Assembly: GCA_947561715.1 (NCBI GenBank)
Contig: OX387199.1
Location: forward strand, 3,477,001 to 3,541,000
Source: Ascidia mentula
Taxonomy: Eukaryota > Chordata > Ascidiacea > Phlebobranchia > Ascidiidae
Direction: 5' to 3'
Length of the DNA: 64,000 nt
Positions 1 through 60,200 of the stretch are shown in pieces. Both the position numbers and the translations under genes were made by a program. Position 1 is the first letter of the stretch. Every line of letters begins with the position of its first letter. Under the pieces are notes generated by a model that ran no database searches, was not told the DNA's origin, and was given only the letters and a program-made list of their open reading frames with translations.

Positions 1-5330
<5,330 letters not shown>

Positions 5331-39600: not shown

Positions 39601-42600
39601 ACAAATATTTTTTATTTATTTATTTTTTACATAGTGTCCTGTTTTTGTTTCAGCATCCCAACTGCAGAGTTCAGTTGGAAGGTTGTAAAATCCTTAACAT
39701 GACACTGGAGAATTTACAGAAAACAATTGCATTTATTGAAACTGACCAAATCTGGATTAAAAGTAACTATTCTCAACAGGAAAGATGCAACCTTAAATCT
39801 CTCCTTTGTAGTGAAATTTCCAAGGTATAAGAAAAAATACAATAGTATCTATACTGGGAATCATTCCTTCATTGCTATTGTCAGTGATATCTCGTTACTA
39901 TACACACAAATATAAACAAGTAGACCAATTTTTAATACGCTGTACACTGTTTTATGGATTCATGTTATAGCAAGGGAATATTGCACATTACTTTGCTTCT
40001 GTGTACGATTTGCAGATACTTCCAGATATAGGCTCGCTCATTACAATCTGGTCAACATCTGCAGAAACAAAAGACTCTAAAAACAATGATGGATTTCAAG
40101 AAGAGATGCTGAAAATACTATCCATGTGTCAAGAGGTATGAGTCTTTCACCTGTTCAGCATTCCAACACATCAGGAGATTTTGTCACTACAAATTCCTAT
40201 ATGTTCGTTAGAACCTTCCGGAAGCTTTCTCACAATGCCAGTATGACTTCAGTCGTCTCTTGTTTGGCCTGGAAAGATTGTCAACATGTCCTAGCACTGT
40301 GCTTCATGCAGTTAAAATACTATCGCATGCGCCACACAAATACAAATGGTTCAAAAAGGTAATTTTATGAAAAAGACACAAATTTTATGCACAATTCACA
40401 CCTGCTTTAGCTGTGTAAAGTTAATCTTTTAATGATAAAATTTTTCAATAGATATGTGAGAAATTTATTTCTATCAATTTTTCTGTTTTCTTTGAAGGGC
40501 GACAACAAATGTACGTCGTTTTATCAACTTGTTAAGATTATTACTGACCTCACCATCTCTCAGAAACCACCAGCAACCAATGAAGTTTTAGACAAATCCC
40601 TCCATTTGTACAGACAGGTAATTGTTTCTATTAAACTTTTTGTCTTGTTCAGAACACAAATATTTTTCGAACAGTTTCCCAAACAATTTTTGCAACATGA
40701 CTATTAGTCTATGACGTATACATGCACAGATATAATTTGCACCAGAGTTACCTTTTTGTAACACACAATTTTGCTTCTAAGGTTTGCATCATGAACAACA
40801 TTATTGACCATGAGAAGAATGGTGAAGAGCTAGTATGGTTAAAATATTTCACCTCGAGCATGGCGGAATGTGACAAACAATTTTTGTTGTCATTTTTCGA
40901 GGAACTTTGTGCAGAAGTTGCAAAACGTCCTCATAGGTAAATAAAATTGTAATGGATATACAGCTTTGTCAGTAAGAAAAACATGCTTAAAAAGTATTGA
41001 TAAGCAATGTGGAGCCAATAATATGAAAAGTTTTGTAACCAACGGATGATGGTGATAGTTGAAGACTTTGCTTGGCCGTTTGGTCAGCAAAGTCGTCTGA
41101 TAGTCACACCAGCTGCACTGATGAGACCTTTTAGGTAGAAACATCTGTCTGCAGCTTATACACAATTAAAAAATATTGTTTAAATTTACATAAAACATAT
41201 AAAGTTAAGGCATGACACATTGCGTTAAAATGCCTGGTTGTTTTACGCAGCTTACTCGCTGTTCGTTTGATTATCTAAATCTCTAAAAATGCTAAAATGT
41301 TGTGCAGGTATTCTGAAAAGAACATGGCTTTCATGGTGGACACATCAGTTAGTGACCAACCCACCAGCAATATTACAGTTAACGAAGAATGGTGGCAAAA
41401 TTTGCCAGATGTTGAAATAAAAACTGTTGTTCCTTGTGAGTTGGTGACAACCCCAATATCAGATCCAGGTGAAACTATTTTCTTTTAATGTTTATACCTT
41501 ATCATGGGTGAAACTTTGGAGGTTATATCGGCACCCATGCCAATTTCCCCCAGTATATATTTATAGTTAATTTATGTTGCATTCAGTAGCTAATACGCAA
41601 AAAATTAAAATGGTTTAGTGCCAAAAAATGATTTGATTTGCATAAACAACATACATGTCAAAACACTATGTTACATTGGCTGCAAAATATATTTATGTAT
41701 TTATTTATTTCCATTACTTCATGTCATTAAATGTTTATTGGGTTATTTTCTTCTCCAACAGGCATAAAGGTAAACACTAATTGTGCAGCAGGACATCCTA
41801 TGTCATTGTTATTATGTGCTGCATTTGAATGGATAAATCGACCCGACATGACAACTAAAGTTGCAGATAATTTTCAGACTCTGGATAGGTAGGTGGCCAA
41901 ATACCTTAATGAATATGCTTTGGAATAACTAAATCCAAATAATTCCTAGAAGATGGTATTTTTTGTACGATGCATATTAAAATACGGTGTATGTTTCAAT
42001 GAGTATTAAATTTTACAAATATCAATTATTTTTCGAGGTACCTGGTTTCTGTTGTTATTGAGTTATATTACCACCACAGCTTGTCACAATCCTCGGACAT
42101 GTTTCTGTCAGTGTTGAAAAACCTGAACACTGAGGTAATTGATGTTATTTTACAAATACAGCTTATATTTAAATGAGATATGTTTAACTGTATCATCAAA
42201 CGTAGAAAGTATTTGTTTTGTCTTTGAGCCGCCTTTAGCTTTTAAAAATAAATTTTTAGCCACCTGAGCAGGTTAATGATTTGTCATTTTATTTTTTGTG
42301 TGTTGCAGTTGAATGTGAAAGACAAATTGCCAATGCTTCAAATGTTTTTGCAAAAAAATTGTCTTGCAAATGAAATTCTGGAATCTTCGGTGTTGAATCC
42401 AATTTTTGCCTCAGCCACTTGGTTTGATAAAGTGTATGAAGCATTGCAAGCTGTCAAAAATTCAAAACTGAGCAAAGTTAAAAAACATATTAGGAAACTA
42501 GAAAATGCAATTGCTACAACAACGGAAGTGGAACTGGTTTTAAATCCAGATGACCAGGAAGATTGTAGTGTATTTGGTCCATTGCAAAATCATACCTTTG

Positions 42601-45600: not shown

Positions 45601-48600
45601 AATCAGATCCTGCAAATGGAAACCGCCAATAGCCACAAACTGCTGAAGGCGACCACTCTCTTCAAGATGGTGACAAGTCATTCGAATTTCCTCGAGATTG
45701 TCTTGTCCACCACCGAAAGCGTAAGCACAAAATGTGCCAGAAATATTAAATTAAAGAAGAACAGATTAATTAAAATACTTTAAAGTACAGTGCACAGATC
45801 CGCCAACAAAACTAACTGTGTTTATTTTATTGCAGGAAAGTCTCTCAAAGACGAGTCTCCTTCGACTTCTGCTTAGTTTGGTTCAGCGTTGTGATCCCAG
45901 TGAATTCCACGTGTCTGATTATCACTATCTACTGGCTGCCTACAACGCCACGCTATCAGATGCCGACCAATGTATTCTGCAGGTCTGTGCTTTATACTGG
46001 TGTCGTTTAGTTGCTGCTCTACAGTATAGTAAAACAATCGAATAGTTTCTTCGTAACTTTGAGAAACTGTATTTTTACGGCCAGATTCTCCTTCTTTATG
46101 AAGCGAACGGCATATCGACCGCAGACTGCAGCCCTTTTCTTTGGGGAAACACTGCACTGGAGTCGTATCAGGCTCGAAAAAACATGGGGGAAACACTGTA
46201 CAAGAAACCGGCGCCAAACAAAGTACTCGGTATGTACATATATATCCACATTCATTTTTACTTTGGCTCAACTTACCTCTTTGTGTCTAGCTTGCATCGA
46301 TAGAGATGTAATGGCCAACTCGTTGCTACATTTTCCCATCAGGAGGCGTTTCATTCCCCTGGACAACGTGAAAGGTTGGTAAAGTGTCTAACTAGGCAAT
46401 CCTAATGTATAATAAACAGACAAAACAGCGTGGTAAATGTATTGGAATCATTTGAGATACACAAGTAGGCAAAGTGGCTTGCCAATGCTCTTCTGATACA
46501 ATCACATTTGAATTCGGTCCTGTCAAATATACCTCAATATATTAGCTGAACAGCGATTCTGAATTAGCACAAACCATTATGTCATTCCTAAATACTCAGT
46601 TTCTTGTTTTCAGAAAATCCAACCGCCATTTCCCTATACAGTGAAGACGAAGCTGGGGCAGAAATAGGTCCCCGCTACGACCCCCAGTTCCTTCTCTCCG
46701 TATTTTCCTCAATTCTCGTCCCGGAAAATCTCATCGACTGTCGTTCTATACTCCGCCAGGGGGCGCTCGCGTTCCTTCTGGTCTCCCTGTCTTCCCACTG
46801 TCCGATGATAAGGAGTTTGGCGGCGGGTTGCTTGGCAAGATACTACGAGCTCGCCGAACGTAAGGATCTTGATCGAAAACGAATATATACCCTGTGTATT
46901 ACATACGTGTGCGTTACTCTGCGGTGATTAGGTCTGCCGTTTGTCATGTGACATTTCGGATACTCATTCAGGCGTGACAGCTATGTTAAACTGCTATGAT
47001 TCCACCGTATTGTTGTAATCAATATCGAACAAACGCATTTGCAAACTATCCATAAGAGTCATAAGATTTATTGAGTTGCAGACATCAGTGCACGCTATTT
47101 CGACCCGTATGGTATTATCAGTGCAGCTGGCGACTGTAGCGGCAAACTTAGTATCTTGTCAAGCCCAGAATTTTCCAAGTTAATCCGTTGGGCAGCCAAA
47201 CTAGTTGACAAACAGAAACGAACCATGAGACCTCACAAGTCGAAACAGTGTGCACTACTGTCCGCAGCCATAATTTCATTTATAAACCGAATAAATCGCT
47301 ACTTTGGAAGGATTTTAGCACGAACAACAGAGGCAATAAGATAGCGAAAAACGTCTACTAGGTTCAAGATACAAACCGTTGTTTTGCAGCTCTGTGGTTT
47401 TCCGAAAAGAACCTCACCCTCTACTTGCTCAGATGCGTTCGGAACGCCGCCGAAATTGACAAAGGCTCGGTTAGAAAAATTTCCACCATAATGGGGTTGT
47501 ACCTCGCCAAGATGGCCGAAATCATGTGTCAGGTATGCAATTTTTATTTGATACTATACCCAAAGCGAAGTATGTATTCTGTGTAACTGAAACCTGTAAT
47601 GGCAAGGACTTTACAGTGGTGCGATTATGTATGTACTTTTTAAGCTTTTTCGTGTAAATGTATGTGAAATTTGTTCATATTAGGCAACTTCTTGAGGCAA
47701 AACTTCGTCCAAATATAATCCCATAATTGTGGCACACGGTTTTACTTTTTCAGCCGGCCGAGCATATGTACTTCGCGCTCAACCGGTTTTTACTGGTTAA
47801 ACCCGGTTTGGACCTACGTCACGTTCCCGAGTTCTACGTACTTTTCTTCAGCACAGATATGGAATATAAAACGGAGCGAGCCTGGATTCTTAATCTACTA
47901 GCGCAAGGTGCCAACATGTGTTTCTCGTCACCAAAACGTTAACAGACTACACGGTAGCTTGAAATTAATAACATCCTGTATTTTATCAACACAAATGCTA
48001 GTTTTTTTATGGGCAAGGACAGACTTTTAGTTTTTTTGCGTTTCACTGCCAATTCCCAGTCGACATGTATCTGTGGTGTAATTACAGGTGTTCGTGACAT
48101 GGGCGACTATCACGTGATCCAAAGCCGACAGCTTCTTCGCATTATGATGACGTATTACACATCACCGACCAGCGACAACAAGACCAGAGCGCAAGTGTTA
48201 AAGGTGAGAGGATAGTGTGTTAAAGTGTTAAATGATCCAAACTGCTTTAATTTCTAGGTACTTCTTCAAATTCCAGGTATTTCTCTTTAAATTCCAGGTA
48301 CTAGGAAACTGCTGTGTTATCCGAGGAGCTGCTTTCGACCTCGTTTACAACCTCGGGCTCCTGCCCTGGTTACTTGACGTTGTCATCCGACATTCAGACC
48401 GCAAGTGTACACAAGATGGCGGGAGCGACTCCTCCAAGCGCCGGGACCCAACCAGGGGAGTTGCGGGGGTTCTAAAGTCCCTGTGGGGCTCATTGGCCCC
48501 TAACATAACCCACCAGGTCCCGGAAATCGACGCGCGTCACCAACCAGCCCAAATGGAAGAAATTCAAGAGGAAAGTGGTATTGAAATTGCAAAGACGGAC

Positions 48601-51795: not shown

Positions 51796-52170
51796 ATTGA
51801 TTTAATATAACGCAGTAATATTACATGCAATGGCATGATAGGCAGGATCGCCCCACTGCGCAGGTCCTTGCTTGGCGATCACAGCTAACGTATCGCGATC
51901 ATGAGGTTTTCGGTCTTGGCAGCCCAGGCAATGCAGCCTAGCTGGATCAGGTGAAGATCCCCTACGTATATGTGAAGCCCGTGAAACCACTGAGTTCCTG
52001 TAGCTCAGTTGGTAGAGCGTTGGGCCTGGTTAGCCCAGGGTCGTGAGTTCAAACCTCACCGGGAGCTTGATTTTTCAAATCTCGCCCCGATTTGTCAGGA
52101 AAAAGTGGCTGATCCAGCAAGGCTGCATTGCCTGGGCTGCCAAGCCCGAAAACATGATTGATTTAATATA
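51796..52170 (+). mobile_element. tRNA-bearing SINE-like insertion with 14-bp target-site duplication
   Basis: A 14-bp direct repeat ATTGATTTAATATA (51796-51809 and 52157-52170) flanks a ~347-bp insert. Inside, two arms of about 47 bp (51901-51950 and 52109-52155) are inverted repeats with few mismatches. They enclose a tRNA-like segment. The left ~90 bp (51809-51900) recur at 63760-63851, so at least part of the element is dispersed. Confidence 0.7.
51994..52066 (+). tRNA. tRNA-like sequence (pseudo-tRNA or SINE head, anticodon loop reads GGT)
   Basis: It folds as a cloverleaf: acceptor GTTCCTG/CGGGAGC, D arm GCTC/GAGC, anticodon stem TGGGC/GCCCA with loop CTGGTTA, T arm GTGAG/CTCAC with loop TTCAAAC. 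A-box (TAGCTCAGTTGG) and B-box-like (GTTCAAACC) promoters are present and a T run follows at 52071. Two bases instead of one lie between the D and anticodon stems, and base 37 is T rather than a purine. A GGT (Thr) anticodon is unusual in eukaryotic nuclei. This points to a tRNA-derived element rather than a working tRNA. Confidence 0.7.
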
Positions 52171-52267
52171 ATCACAAAAATTAGAGCGGCATAAGCCACA
52201 ATGAAATTGTTATGGATAATCTGTTTGATCGCAGGAAGCTATTTTGTAGAATATTTAGATTGTTATC

Positions 52268-53809
52268 ATGGTGTTAAAAAGTGCATTGCCAGACATTGAA
52301 TGTCCCCAAATTCCCATCGCTCAGTTGGCCCTGGAGAAAATGAAAAGCTTTGGAAACAAGATTGCAGTAGTGGATCCCTACAAGGATCAATCGTGGGCAT
52401 TTACTCAACTCTACGAACAATCGATCGAGATGGCTCTTAAACTTCGTTCAATTGGCGTCAAAAAGAACGACTTCGTTGAATTGGTTCTTGATTTTCATCC
52501 CAAATCATTCCCAATATTAGTTGGTCTGGCATTGTGCAAAGCTGTAGCCGTCTGTGGCAATGTCAATGACAAAGCAAAATCTGCCGCAAAGCAAATCATT
52601 CAAGTCGGGGCCAAGTTTTGCATCTGCGAAAGTTCCCAATTAAAACAGGAGCTAATGTTAGAAGAAGATTTAAAGTTAGTTGAAATTTTCTCTTTGCTCG
52701 AAGTGCAGAACCTTGTTGCAAAACCAGGAAAACACGTGATAAAAGAACATTTGTCCTCCGAGGGTGTTGCTCTTTTTCAAGATACTCTGTATGTTACTTT
52801 TACAAGCGGTTCAACAGGCAAACCAAAAGGAGTTGAAAATACAAATGCCAATTTCCTGGAGGGAATCACATTATCATTGGAATGTTTCCTTTTCCAACCT
52901 GGTGATTGCTTTTTAACTTTGAGTATGCAGTTAAACACAGTTGGATACTTTAACTTTTTCGTGTGTTTAATCGCTGGCATTAAGCATGTCGCCACCACGA
53001 CTCTCTCGTCCGATCTATTTGGTCAATATGTAACTAAATACAATGTAAATGGAGCTGATATATGCGACTTCATAACAATGCGCCAACTGGCCTACGGGTG
53101 TAATTTGGAAAGCAATTCAAGCTTAAAGTTCATCATGACAAGTGGCTCTACAATGCCAACGAAGATCTTTCAAAGAGCAAAGGAAAGGTTGAATGTGATA
53201 GTAACACAAAACTACGGGCTCTCGGAATGTTTTTTTATATCCCTCACTGTTGCAATACAAACAACTCTCAACAGCTCAGGAATGCTTTGTCCAAATGTTC
53301 AACTTAAAGTTCTCGATGTTGAAAGTGGTGTCGAACTGGGCCCTGGAAAACATGGAGAACTCTGCGTCAAAAGTGAAAGTTGCTTTAAAGGATATTTACA
53401 CGACCAGAAAGCAACGGATGCAGTTATGGATGAATGCGGTTGGCTTCGAACAGGAGACGTGGGGTATTATGATGAGGATCGCTACGTTTATGTGATAGAT
53501 AGACTTAAAAATTCAATCAAGTCATTTGGCAATATGTCAATTTTTCCCTTGCAACTGGAAGCTGTTCTTTCATCTCATCCCGGTGTGGCTGAGGCGGCCG
53601 TTGTTCGAACCCATCATGAAACTTACAACGAGGCGGCGAAGGCCTTTGTTGTAAAAAAAGATCCGAGTTTGACTAAAGAATCTTTGCTTTGTTATTTCAA
53701 CGCGCAAGTGGCAGAATATCAGCAGCTTTCCGGTGGGTTGGAGTTTATTGATCAAATACCCAGAGTTCGTTTCGGAAAGCCAAATCGAAGAGCCCTAGAG
53801 AAACTGTAA
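52268..53809 (+). CDS. Intronless ANL-family adenylate-forming enzyme (acyl-CoA synthetase / 4CL-like), copy 1
   Basis: A single 513-residue open frame. ANL enzymes activate a carboxylate with ATP to an acyl-adenylate and usually pass it to CoA. The diagnostic motifs are in order: P-loop FTSGSTGKPKG (about residue 178), YGLSE (about 319) corresponding to the YGxTE aromatic/Glu motif, the TGDVG ATP-binding Asp (about 400), the hinge DRLKNSIKSFG (about 413-423), and a C-terminal FGKPNRR holding the catalytic Lys. The length is slightly short of 4-coumarate-CoA ligases or luciferases. No signal peptide and no SKL-type peroxisomal tail (ends LEKL). The lack of introns contrasts with every other gene in the window. 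It is convergent with copy 2, whose stop is 1.03 kb away. Substrate unknown. Confidence 0.92.
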   Translation: MVLKSALPDIECPQIPIAQLALEKMKSFGNKIAVVDPYKDQSWAFTQLYEQSIEMALKLRSIGVKKNDFVELVLDFHPKSFPILVGLALCKAVAVCGNVNDKAKSAAKQIIQVGAKFCICESSQLKQELMLEEDLKLVEIFSLLEVQNLVAKPGKHVIKEHLSSEGVALFQDTLYVTFTSGSTGKPKGVENTNANFLEGITLSLECFLFQPGDCFLTLSMQLNTVGYFNFFVCLIAGIKHVATTTLSSDLFGQYVTKYNVNGADICDFITMRQLAYGCNLESNSSLKFIMTSGSTMPTKIFQRAKERLNVIVTQNYGLSECFFISLTVAIQTTLNSSGMLCPNVQLKVLDVESGVELGPGKHGELCVKSESCFKGYLHDQKATDAVMDECGWLRTGDVGYYDEDRYVYVIDRLKNSIKSFGNMSIFPLQLEAVLSSHPGVAEAAVVRTHHETYNEAAKAFVVKKDPSLTKESLLCYFNAQVAEYQQLSGGLEFIDQIPRVRFGKPNRRALEKL

Positions 53810-54840: not shown

Positions 54841-56379
54841 TTAAAGTTGATTCAGCGCCTTTCTCTTCAGCTTTCCAAGACCAACCCTGGGTAATTGATC
54901 AATAAACTCCAACCCACCGAAAAGCTGCTGATATTCTGCCACTTGTGCGTTGAAATAAAACAGCAAAGACTCTTTCGACAAACTCGGATCTTTCTTTACA
55001 ACAAAAGCCTTCGCCGCCTCGTTGTAAGTTTCATGATGGGTTCGAACAACGGCCGCTTCAGCCACACCGGAATGAGATAAAAGAACAGCTTCCAGTTGGA
55101 CCGGATAAATTGACATGTTACCAAATGTCTTGATTACATTTTTAAGTCTATCTATTACATAAACGTAACCATCCTCATCATAATACCCCACGTCTCCTGT
55201 CCGAAGCCAACCGCAATTATCCATAACTGCATCCGTTGCTTTCTGGTCGTGTAAATACCCTTTAAAGCAGCTTTTACTTTTGACGCAGAGTTCTCCATGC
55301 TTTCCAGGTCCCAGTTCGACACCAGTTTCAACATCGAGAACTTTAAGTTGAACGTTTGGACAAAGCATTCCAGAGCTATCAAGAGGTGCTGGGTTTGTAA
55401 CAGTGAGAGATATGTAGTAACATTCCGAGAGCCCGTAGTTCTGTGTTACTATCACGTTCAACCTTTCATTTGCTGTTTGAAGGATATTCTTTGGCATTGG
55501 TGAGCCACCAAACATTATGAACCGCGGTGTTGTATTTCTTTCCAAATCACACTCGCAGGCTAGCCTGTTCATTGTAAGAAAATCGCATATATCAGCTCCG
55601 TTTACTCCGTATTTAGTTACACATTGGCTGAAAAATGTGGGCGAAAGAGTCGTAGTAATAATGTGCTTAGAGCCTGTGATTAATTGCTCGAAAAAGCCAA
55701 AGTACCCAGCAAGGTCTAACTGCATGCTCAAAGTTAACATACAGTCTCCTGCTTGCAAATGCAAACTTGCCAATTTTAACGTGATTCCTTCCATGAAATT
55801 GGCATTTGTATTTACAACTCCTTTTGGCTGACCGGTCGAACCACTTGTAAATGTGATGCACAGGTTATCTTTTGATAGATCAACCCCATCCGCAGAAATA
55901 ACTTCCTCAAGGACTTGTTTTTCTCCTTTTACCGCAAGGTTTTGCACTTCGAGCAAAGAGAAAATCTTGACAAACTGTAAATCCTCCTCCAGCAGATCCT
56001 GTTTTAGTTGCCATTTATCGCAGATGCAAAACTTTGCTTCAACTTGTTTAATTTGCTTTGCGATATCTTTACCTTTGTCATTTACATTGCCACAGACGGC
56101 TACAGCTTTGCACAATGCCAGGCCAACTAATATTGGGAATGATTTGGGATGAAAATCAAGAACCAATTCAACAAAGTCGTTCTTTTTGACGCCAATTGAA
56201 CGAAGTTTAAGAGCCATCTCGATCGATTGTTCGTAGAGTTGAGTAAAAGTCCACGATTGATCCTTGTAGGGATCCACTAAAGCAATCTTGTTTCCAAAGC
56301 TTTTCATTTTCTCCAGGGCCAACTGACCAATGGGTATATTTGGGCATTCCAAGGATGGAAACTGACTTTTCAGCACCAT
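54841..56379 (-). CDS. Intronless ANL-family adenylate-forming enzyme, copy 2
   Basis: A single 512-residue open frame, paralogue of copy 1 in inverted orientation. The motifs are retained: FTSGSTGQPKG, YGLSE, TGDVG, DRLKNVIKTFG and LGKLKRK with the catalytic Lys. Residues 13-100 are almost identical to copy 1 at protein and DNA level, and so are most of residues 330-500. Residues 110-310, which form much of the acyl-binding pocket in this superfamily, differ at many positions (FIMFGGSPMPKNILQTA against FIMTSGSTMPTKIFQRA). It ends LNQL, so no peroxisomal tail. It could use a different substrate from copy 1. That is inference. Confidence 0.92.
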   Translation of the reverse strand: MVLKSQFPSLECPNIPIGQLALEKMKSFGNKIALVDPYKDQSWTFTQLYEQSIEMALKLRSIGVKKNDFVELVLDFHPKSFPILVGLALCKAVAVCGNVNDKGKDIAKQIKQVEAKFCICDKWQLKQDLLEEDLQFVKIFSLLEVQNLAVKGEKQVLEEVISADGVDLSKDNLCITFTSGSTGQPKGVVNTNANFMEGITLKLASLHLQAGDCMLTLSMQLDLAGYFGFFEQLITGSKHIITTTLSPTFFSQCVTKYGVNGADICDFLTMNRLACECDLERNTTPRFIMFGGSPMPKNILQTANERLNVIVTQNYGLSECYYISLTVTNPAPLDSSGMLCPNVQLKVLDVETGVELGPGKHGELCVKSKSCFKGYLHDQKATDAVMDNCGWLRTGDVGYYDEDGYVYVIDRLKNVIKTFGNMSIYPVQLEAVLLSHSGVAEAAVVRTHHETYNEAAKAFVVKKDPSLSKESLLFYFNAQVAEYQQLFGGLEFIDQLPRVGLGKLKRKALNQL

Positions 56380-57834
56380 GCTAACTTAATTAATTAATGA
56401 ATTAATTAATTTCCTGGTAATTATATTAGATTACCACGGTGTTATTACAACATCAGTATTCACCAAATGATATAAACGCTGAGCTTATCATACAAATCAC
56501 ATTTTGAAGGATAAAAATACTCTGTGAAACAGATAGTCACTGTTTCGACCTTATGCAGCTCGTTGTGATTATAAATGGTCATGCCGGCTAAATGACCAGG
56601 CAACGATTTCCACTATGTGGCGACTAAGCGGAATTGTCACACCAAGCTGCACTGATGAAATTTTGTAGATCGAAACATTGGCAATATGTTTGGAGCTCAT
56701 AAAATTAATATTATTGGGTCTAAGCTTTCATGTGTGAAAAAATTACTTGACCGATTGAAATAAATTAACTCAACCTGGACGGCAAAGTCAACCTTTTAGT
56801 GTGTTGCTGTATAAATAAAAAAGATTTGATAATCCACCTGTCACAGTATTTAGCACATGCAGGCTTACTGATGCACTAAACTTCGTACCAGTGTCTGTGC
56901 AAACGCATGCAACCAGACTAACTCATGAAGTTTCGTGCTAGTTTTCCGTGTATGTGCAAACGCATACAACCAGGCGGGGTGCTTCAAGGTCAAGGGCAAA
57001 AATTGCCGACGAGCAGTCGCTGAAATCTTTTCTAAATTGTTCAACGCACATAACATTGCTCATTCTTACGATACCACTGAGTATTACACAATACCTTTGC
57101 CAACTTAACCTGAATATGATAAATCTGCTTCAGTTTATTGGCAATCATTCCAACACGCCGTTCAAACTTCAGCGAACACGCGAATGCCTGATCATTCATA
57201 AAAAAAAACATGTTGTAGTTTATCTGTTTTAGTAATTGTAGATGTTGTTGTCTACTGTTCATTTTACTATTTGAATCATTCAACAAGCAAACACGAAGAA
57301 GCACAGCTACGCAGTTGTTGGTGACGAGGTCGTAAACACGTGACTGAACGACTGCCGTTACGTACCAGTTCTGCTTGTCACGCAAAGCATAGTTTGAAGC
57401 ATTAAGAAAATACCTGACCGATTAAAATAAATTAACTCAACCTGAACGGCAAAGTCTACCTTTTAGTGTGTTGCTGTATAAATAAAAAAGATTTGATAAA
57501 GTCACCGTATTTGGCACATGCAGGCTTACCGATGCACTAAGCTTCGTGCCAGATTTCCTTGTGTTTGTAAACACATACAACCAGGCGAGGTTGTACACAG
57601 CAAAGGGTAAAGACGTCAACCAGTTGTGACAGCAGTCTTTTCAAAATTATTTAACGCACACACCATTCTCATTCTTGCGATAACACAAAGTATTACACAA
57701 TGCCTTTGCCAACTTAACTTGAAAATGTTAAATCTGTTCTAGGTGGTAATCGTTCCAACACGCCGTTCAAATTCACAGCGGATGCTTATATTCGTTTTGA
57801 AAAAGAAAACATATTCGGTAATTACTCTTTTTTC
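56380..57834. other. Repeat-rich intergenic region with a duplicated ~300-bp block
   Basis: No intact gene. A block beginning ATAAATTAACTCAACCT near 56760 and running past 56990 is repeated from about 57424 to 57660 in the same orientation. It carries the shared text TTTAGTGTGTTGCTGTATAA and a decayed second half. The left edge (56380-56410) is a TTAATTAA-rich palindromic tract just upstream of the copy 2 ATG. Confidence 0.7.
56645..56697 (+). ncRNA. Decayed hammerhead-like element related to the URB1-intron one
   Basis: It shares the text GTCACACCA(A)GCTGCACTGATGA with 41103-41124 and then has ATTT..AGAT as a weak stem II and GAAAC (56672-56676). The expected GTC cleavage triplet is replaced (GCA) and the 3' stem I strand is degraded. 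Best read as an inactive relative of the same dispersed element. Confidence 0.5.
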
Positions 57835-59749: not shown

Positions 59750-60200
59750 CTACAGTTTCTCTAGGGCTCTTCTCTTTGGCTTTCCGAAACGAACTCTGGG
59801 TATTTGATCAATAAACTCCAACCCACCGAAAAGCTGCTGATATTCTGCCACTTGTGCGTTGAAATAACAAAGCAAAGATTCTTTCGTTAAAGCTTGGTCT
59901 TTTTTCACAACAAAAAATCGAACAACGGCCGCCTCAGCCACACCGGGATGAGATAAAAGAACAGCTTCCAGTTGGACCGGATAAATTGACACACTGCCAA
60001 ATGACTTGATTGAATTTTTAAGTCTATCAACAAGCCATCTCGATCGACTGTTCGTATAGTTGAGTTAATGTCCACGATTGATCCTTGTAGGGATCCACCA
60101 CTGCAATCTTTTTTTCACAGCTTTTCATTTTCTCCAGAGCCAACTGACCAATGGGTATTTGGGGACATTCAATGTCTGGTAATGCACTTTTTAACACCAT
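59750..60200 (-). pseudogene. Truncated adenylate-forming enzyme pseudogene
   Basis: It starts at ATG 60200 with the same opening as copy 1 and reads about 65 codons to the YEQSIEMA region. Then at about 60030 it jumps to the DRLKNSIKSFG hinge, losing about 350 codons and the frame. It continues to a C-terminal end ALEKL with stop at 59750. A second deletion removes the HHETYNEAAKA stretch. Both flanks match those of copy 1 in inverted orientation (5' 60201-60290, 3' 59370-59749), so it is a duplicated, internally deleted copy. Confidence 0.9.

Follow-up and report, generated by a model that had tools for sequence, protein, structure and literature searches.

The URB1-like locus and its intronic insertion

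The DNA analysed here, referred to as the window, is a 64,000-nt stretch of the Ascidia mentula genome (contig OX387199.1, positions 3,477,001 to 3,541,000 of the forward strand). Within it, a putative 371-nt intron at 40937-41307 joins two open frames of a URB1-like gene and holds a 166-bp insertion of fold-back type on the same strand as the gene. The sequence-only reading had placed a near-complete hammerhead ribozyme at this site, in a URB1 intron. The sense orientation relative to the gene was confirmed; the identity of the gene as URB1 is plausible, resting on a single plus-strand exon with a Pfam NopRA1 match below the cut-off (24.4 bits against 29.6). Pfam scans of six further putative gene pieces gave nothing, and comparison with solved structures returned no useful match to URB1. 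The location of the insertion within a URB1 intron is therefore plausible but not proven.

The features of the insertion and its host intron are as follows:

40937..41307, plus strand: phase-2 GT..AG intron of the URB1-like gene, 371 nt, holding the insertion (assigned by eye, ends checked)
40987..40999, no strand: left target-site duplication, TTAAAAAGTATTG, AT-rich and 12/13 identical to the right copy (found by eye)
40998..41027, minus strand: inverted piece, unit positions 18-47, 100% identical, with the long (B, tailed) 3' end
41000..41165, plus strand: retrozyme-like insertion, 166 bp, fold-back type (alignment and border reading)
41028..41165, plus strand: sense piece, running from position 141 of one unit into the following one as far as position 16, with the short (A) 3' end (alignment)
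41166..41178, no strand: right target-site duplication, TTAAAAAATATTG (compared with the left copy)

No pair among 20,000 random pairs of 13-mers from the window matched as well as the 12/13 identity of this duplication, while 36 of 2000 shuffles of the AT-rich flanks reached the same local duplication score. An automatic duplication scan missed the duplication, having set the right border 13 nt too far.

Elsewhere in the window, a tRNA-Thr (ggt) gene was observed at 51993-52068 (+). Frames resembling acyl-CoA synthetases and luciferases are clustered at 52259-53809 (+), 54841-56385 (-) and 59750-60064 (-), and one scanned frame of this cluster contains AMP-binding and AMP-binding_C domains.

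The hammerhead motif is genuine by homology

Direct reading of the letters at 41103-41156 (+) confirmed the motif in every position first described, with its parts in type I order on the plus strand and a predicted cut after C41149. Its parts are:

41111..41117, plus strand: 5' strand of stem I, AGCTGCA, forming 7 bp with TGCAGCT at 41150-41156 (read from the letters)
41118..41124, plus strand: conserved core CTGATGA (CUGAUGA) (read from the letters)
41125..41137, plus strand: stem II, ACCT/AGGT, 4 bp, behind a broken G10.1-C11.1 pair (G41125-A41137 mismatch)
41138..41142, plus strand: conserved GAAAC, with 7 nt of intact copies absent within it or just after it (alignment to an intact copy)
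41141..41148, plus strand: remnant of stem III, AC/GT, 2 bp, with the 4-base loop ATCT (letters and alignment)
41149..41156, plus strand: C17 (predicted cut after C41149) and the 3' strand of stem I (read from the letters)

General-purpose tests did little to distinguish this motif. The Rfam covariance search proposed as a check by the sequence-only reading gave weak, sub-threshold hammerhead matches, and a scan of the whole window gave no hammerhead at the gathering threshold. With 501 bases, the type III hammerhead model scored 14.8 bits (E 3.6), ranking below SNORD25; with 78 bases, Hammerhead_1 scored 15.9 bits (E 0.13) against a gathering score of 34. An intact copy of the family described below reached only 20.8 bits with Hammerhead_1, likewise under the gathering score of 34, which indicates that Rfam under-scores this family of hammerheads. 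Rfam was therefore set aside as a test of the motif, being too weak for the family, intact copies included. Higher-ranked Rfam matches in the fetched loci (Wolbachia sRNA, mir-994, mir-3204 and others) were also rejected, as fold-back repeats that fit hairpin models at scores below gathering. The folding energy of the 54-nt motif was unremarkable (z -1.44; 23 of 200 shuffles equally good).

These weak Rfam scores and the ordinary folding energy speak for a chance resemblance in AT-rich intronic DNA. Homology decides against it. A covariance model built from 27 relatives, with the window copy excluded, scored the window copy at 57.6 bits (E 1.4e-15, E-values being rough) and intact copies at 87 bits; the training rows include two other copies from the same window. 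In addition, the segment 41057-41178 can be aligned at 88% with a repeat unit dispersed in the genome, whose family numbers its exact hammerhead copies in the hundreds. The score from a model not trained on the window copy, together with this alignment, places the motif beyond chance, and the family alignment refutes a fortuitous origin to the point where it can practically be discounted.

The motif belongs to a dispersed retrozyme-like family

The genome searched comprised 79 contigs totalling 195.8 Mb. With a query of 141 bases around the motif, at least 48 matching places were found in this genome when 40 of 1643 first-look candidates were scored. Intact copies read CCAGCTGCA CTGATGA GACCT TTT AGGTC GAAACAG TGGCCAT CTGTC TGCAGCT, with a stem I of 7 bp, a stem II of 5 bp and a stem III of 4 bp. 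A 27-nt core string had 731 exact genome copies (373 and 358 by strand) and the full 47-nt hammerhead 544 (279 and 265 by strand); the reversed patterns had none in either case. Copies occur singly, head to head, and in tandem at 285-bp intervals. Just beyond the long end of the unit there is a palindrome, ATCATATGAT.

Further copies of the family were detected in the window itself with the covariance model, two of them in the training alignment (A1):

56644..56698, plus strand: second decayed hammerhead copy, 65.5 bits (in A1)
2730..2786, minus strand: third decayed copy, 34.5 bits (in A1)
47073..47129, minus strand: fourth decayed copy, 26.9 bits (outside the training alignment)
47225..47262, plus strand: partial hammerhead fragment, 23.3 bits
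56529..56561, minus strand: partial hammerhead fragment, 19.3 bits

Intact copies contain the CUGANGA, GAAA and NUH elements of the core and three helices in type I order, and are predicted to cleave. Among relatives, 94.2% of helix cells were paired and two pairs showed changes on both sides, a level reached by 71 of 500 shuffles, so that covariation in the family does not convince. The hammerhead was more conserved than the rest of the unit in 8 of 10 diverged copies; with small differences and a local alignment that biases the comparison, this was given no weight. At the DNA level, the family has features by which retrozymes are defined: a type I hammerhead in tandem repeats, here of 285 bp (defining range 150-450 bp), in dispersed, multi-copy, non-coding elements with target-site duplications, the absence of a long ORF being read from one 285-bp unit. 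Collectively, we consider it highly probable (about 85%) that the window feature represents, in decayed genomic form, a non-autonomous, non-LTR retrozyme with a 285-bp unit, a type I hammerhead and the life cycle driven by Penelope-like elements (PLEs) that is proposed below.

In the same assembly, the mitochondrial COX1 gene (contig C79) reads through when AGA and AGG are taken as glycine, with 18 AGR codons, as in the ascidian mitochondrial code. Several of these codons presumably fall at glycines conserved in COX1.

The window copy carries two lesions in its ribozyme

Relative to the intact unit, the 5' half of the window copy differs by a small number of substitutions and gaps; the remainder is identical save for a C11.1-to-A change and a 7-nt deletion. 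The G-A closing of stem II pointed out in the sequence-only reading is thus a real mismatch, and it represents a point change relative to intact copies. That reading had also likened the short stem III to those of Penelope-like elements. Minimal hammerheads do occur in such elements; here, comparison with the 4-bp stem III of intact copies shows that the 2-bp helix is the scar of the 7-nt deletion. The string spanning both lesions occurs once in the genome, with up to one mismatch allowed. Although the core strings are present, G41125 and A41137 are unpaired and stem III is cut to 2 bp, which leaves the window copy outside the type I hammerhead definition. Judged by its alignment, the motif is a type I hammerhead by descent and not a special URB1 ribozyme.

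In folding predictions, adopting the hammerhead cost the window copy 6.0 kcal/mol relative to its predicted minimum-energy structure, in which the core bases GAUG pair with CAUC; the corresponding gap in the intact copy was 1.4 kcal/mol. For the intact 53 nt, the predicted minimum-energy fold was likewise not the hammerhead and the pair probability of stem III was 0.04-0.05; because stem III pairing is weakly predicted even in the intact copy, the gap in fold energy is a comparison and not proof. On this difference, efficient self-cleavage of the window copy is unlikely. By analogy with the minimal hammerheads of animal PLEs, for which little or no helix III is described (PMC7761336, PMC6155905, as far as covered), low residual activity is conceivable.

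The proposal that a working hammerhead in the URB1-like intron cuts the pre-mRNA, perhaps kept for gene regulation, can draw on a perfect stem I, the sense orientation, the presence of every core position but the 10.1-11.1 pair and the use by PLEs of hammerheads with little helix III. It does not fit with a ribozyme that comes from a multi-copy element and carries two lesions, found jointly once genome-wide, with a hammerhead fold 6.0 kcal/mol over the predicted minimum or with insertion borders that are ordinary. We regard it as very improbable, and the suggestion of a near-complete ribozyme that likely cleaves the URB1 pre-mRNA is unsupported.

Two-ended family inserts nearly always pair a short with a tailed 3' end

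Junctions were read from 64 clusters in 61 loci. The sample was not random: the first 20 loci had matched the window best in blast, and the 40 that followed were those listed first on a single contig. Fifty-four clusters were kept and 10 dropped, as duplicates (L014, L073, L078, L079) or as cut or complex (L024, L081, two L070 pieces, the L011 partial and one in L088). Across the 61 loci, 5' ends scattered, while 3' ends fell in two groups, at roughly unit positions 9-29 and 39-59, clustering near 16-19 and 42-50.

The two groups were paired within inserts. All but one of the 32 two-ended inserts combined one short 3' end with one roughly 30 nt longer (18 short-left, 13 short-right), and the remaining insert had two short ends. 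No shuffle of the end labels out of 200,000 reached 31/32. Four of these inserts (L090, L094, L095, L096) are two-ended solely through short extra pieces, that of L094 being marginal (score 21; 95% null 20, top of 100 shuffles 26); without these four, 27/28 are mixed. One identifiable 3' end was present in the other 22 of the 54 inserts (14 short, 8 long). When one-ended inserts were rechecked for tail pieces, no further convincing one was found in 22 of 27; L077 contains a short inverted piece from another part of the unit. In the exceptional insert (L012), one flank matches the reverse complement of the other for 70 nt or more, so that it is probably an inverted duplication. At L012 735-1269 with its flanks, this duplication would take in two retrozyme copies together with a minimum of 70 nt of adjoining DNA on either side.

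The mean target-site duplication score was 8.87, compared with 5.03 (range 4.70-5.26) in 30 permutations of the flanks, and 27 of the 54 inserts scored at least 9. The family displays the features that define Penelope-type insertion, namely an optional 3' tail of 30-40 nt and inverted head-to-head copies. The link of the motif to retrozymes and Penelope-like elements made in the sequence-only reading was a fitting conjecture.

Autonomous PLEs of the same genome follow the same end rule

Matches to GIY-YIG numbered at least 121 in the genome, with 150 of 382 candidates scored, and all three ORFs scanned contained both RVT_1 (RT) and GIY-YIG. Twenty PLE regions were fetched, chosen partly for paired opposite matches, so the frequency of bipolar inserts among them is biased. 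Fifteen of these regions yielded 14 measurable head-to-head inserts (L049/L050, L051, L053-L057, L061, L062, L064-L068); L052, L058, L059, L060 and L063 were left out, having an anchor on one side or none. In all 14, which represent four families, one short and one long 3' end were found, 24-42 nt apart.

No hammerhead with perfect stems turned up when the PLE loci were scanned for a strict motif; a looser scan gave hammerhead-like motifs upstream of or near PLE 3' ends, some of which are chance matches. The sampled loci (families P1-P4) had no detectable pLTR sequence in common with the retrozyme unit, and blast matches of the retrozyme at PLE loci look like separate sibling copies. Siblings with a longer stem III region and an altered stem II loop were observed at L048 686-748, L065 1215-1272, L051 8586-8651 and 8780-8845, and L061 4116-4179 and 4354-4417.

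A unit of 285 bp has no room for RT and GIY-YIG, both of which lie in separate elements, and is thus not itself an autonomous PLE.

Proposed life cycle and alternative explanations

In the proposed life cycle, multimeric RNA would be transcribed from tandem copies and cut by the hammerheads into unit-length RNA, which may be circularised. The RT-endonuclease of a PLE, acting in trans, would then copy the RNA into cDNA where an AT-rich target has been cut in staggered fashion; reverse transcription would begin at either of two internal positions, separated by some 30 nt and lying just downstream of the hammerhead. With both target strands extended, the outcome would be a head-to-head insert that has a short 3' end on one side, a tailed one on the other and a duplication of roughly 8-15 bp. 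One such insert would have landed in the URB1-like intron and subsequently lost its ribozyme through a point change and a 7-nt deletion. The insertion pattern of family copies suggests that they were moved by Penelope-type retrotransposons; another enzyme with like habits could in principle move the family. No partner was singled out among the sampled PLE loci, which have no detectable pLTR sequence in common with the unit.

We further propose, at roughly even odds, that animal retrozymes parasitise PLEs and that both insert through a common mechanism: a dimer of the PLE enzyme would cut both target strands and, where an insertion is two-ended, prime one cDNA from the near site and the other from the far site, so that the tail is one-sided. 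An asymmetric dimer of this kind would leave as its footprint the nearly invariable pairing of a short with a tailed end. A further part of this proposal is that sense copies in introns may be tolerated only once their ribozyme has been disrupted. For head-to-head inserts, an alternative to extending both target strands is self-priming on an antisense template, which the part of PMC3846280 covered proposes for rotifer PLEs; the palindrome just past the long end of the unit would suit such priming. Self-priming alone does not predict differing start sites at the outer ends, as found in 31/32 retrozyme and 14/14 PLE inserts, and we consider it fairly unlikely. Somewhat less probable still is that the 285-bp repeat derives from one autonomous PLE family, as a solo pLTR or by deletion, and is no independent retrozyme. 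In its favour, the PLEs of this genome likewise bear hammerhead-like motifs and have the same ends, and tandem units are typical of both; however, the unit is unlike the pLTRs of families P1-P4, and in the tandem arrays read the units follow one another head to tail and contain no RT frame. With 20 PLE regions fetched, an unsampled PLE with this pLTR is possible.

Significance

The window feature is a decayed member of an already known kind of element, and the intronic motif itself is ordinary, a single decayed copy of a mobile element; its value lies in the family to which it leads. The family is important because, in the portions of PMC7229834, PMC7761336 and PMC8969392 covered, the mover of animal retrozymes has the status of a candidate: PLEs are called 'strong' or 'likely' candidates in the first two, and in PMC8969392 animal retrozymes may rely on PLEs. 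The PLE tail signature at the junctions of 54 retrozyme inserts, under a rule common to PLEs of the same genome, is structural evidence for mobilisation by PLEs. The junction data also give genome-scale evidence on how PLEs start reverse transcription.

In the sections of PMC11167929 covered, a lizard PLE protein cuts and extends both strands, reverse transcription begins at either of two neighbouring internal sites, which accounts for the PLE tail of 30-40 bp, and the PLE hammerhead cut only when protein was added. In vitro, no strand-dependent choice of start site was seen; the asymmetry at the present junctions is thus not predicted by that work. One-sided PLE tails were already known from rotifer PLEs, reported in PMC3846280 (portions covered) with inverted pLTRs, duplications of 8-10 bp and a 31-bp tail optional on one pLTR, and the present counts extend them. 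The portions of PMC7229834 examined do not describe junction asymmetry, and word searches of its main text found no mention of tunicates. Among the titles and passages found on retrozymes, Penelope and the tail, none reports the tail rule for retrozymes; relevant earlier papers outside that coverage may state it.

Comparison with known systems

Nine type I hammerhead loci were detected by covariance search in another ascidian, Didemnum vexillum (PMC8704543, portions covered); they are of the same type as the hammerhead described here and are known as a count, with no element, unit or junction given.

The family resembles the metazoan non-LTR retrozymes (PMC7229834, Cervera and de la Pena 2020, portions covered) in its type I hammerhead, short tandem repeats (150-450 bp in those elements), many dispersed copies, lack of a visible ORF, duplications of more than 4 bp and co-existing PLEs. 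It differs in that its sequence is its own and that it is known from DNA, whereas RNA circles have been demonstrated for the retrozymes of that study. By our reading, stem I of the ascidian family has no obvious internal loop and in this respect is closer to minimal variants.

In contrast to PLEs, the 285-bp unit codes for neither RT nor endonuclease, has no detectable sequence in common with the sampled PLE pLTRs and, in intact copies, has a 4-bp stem III, which PLE hammerheads, as covered in the cited work, mostly lack. Like the Penelope/Poseidon PLEs of PMC11167929 and PMC3846280 (portions covered), the family combines two RT start sites, which delimit a 30-40 bp tail, with AT-rich targets, head-to-head inverted copies, tandem copies, short duplications and a hammerhead near the start sites.
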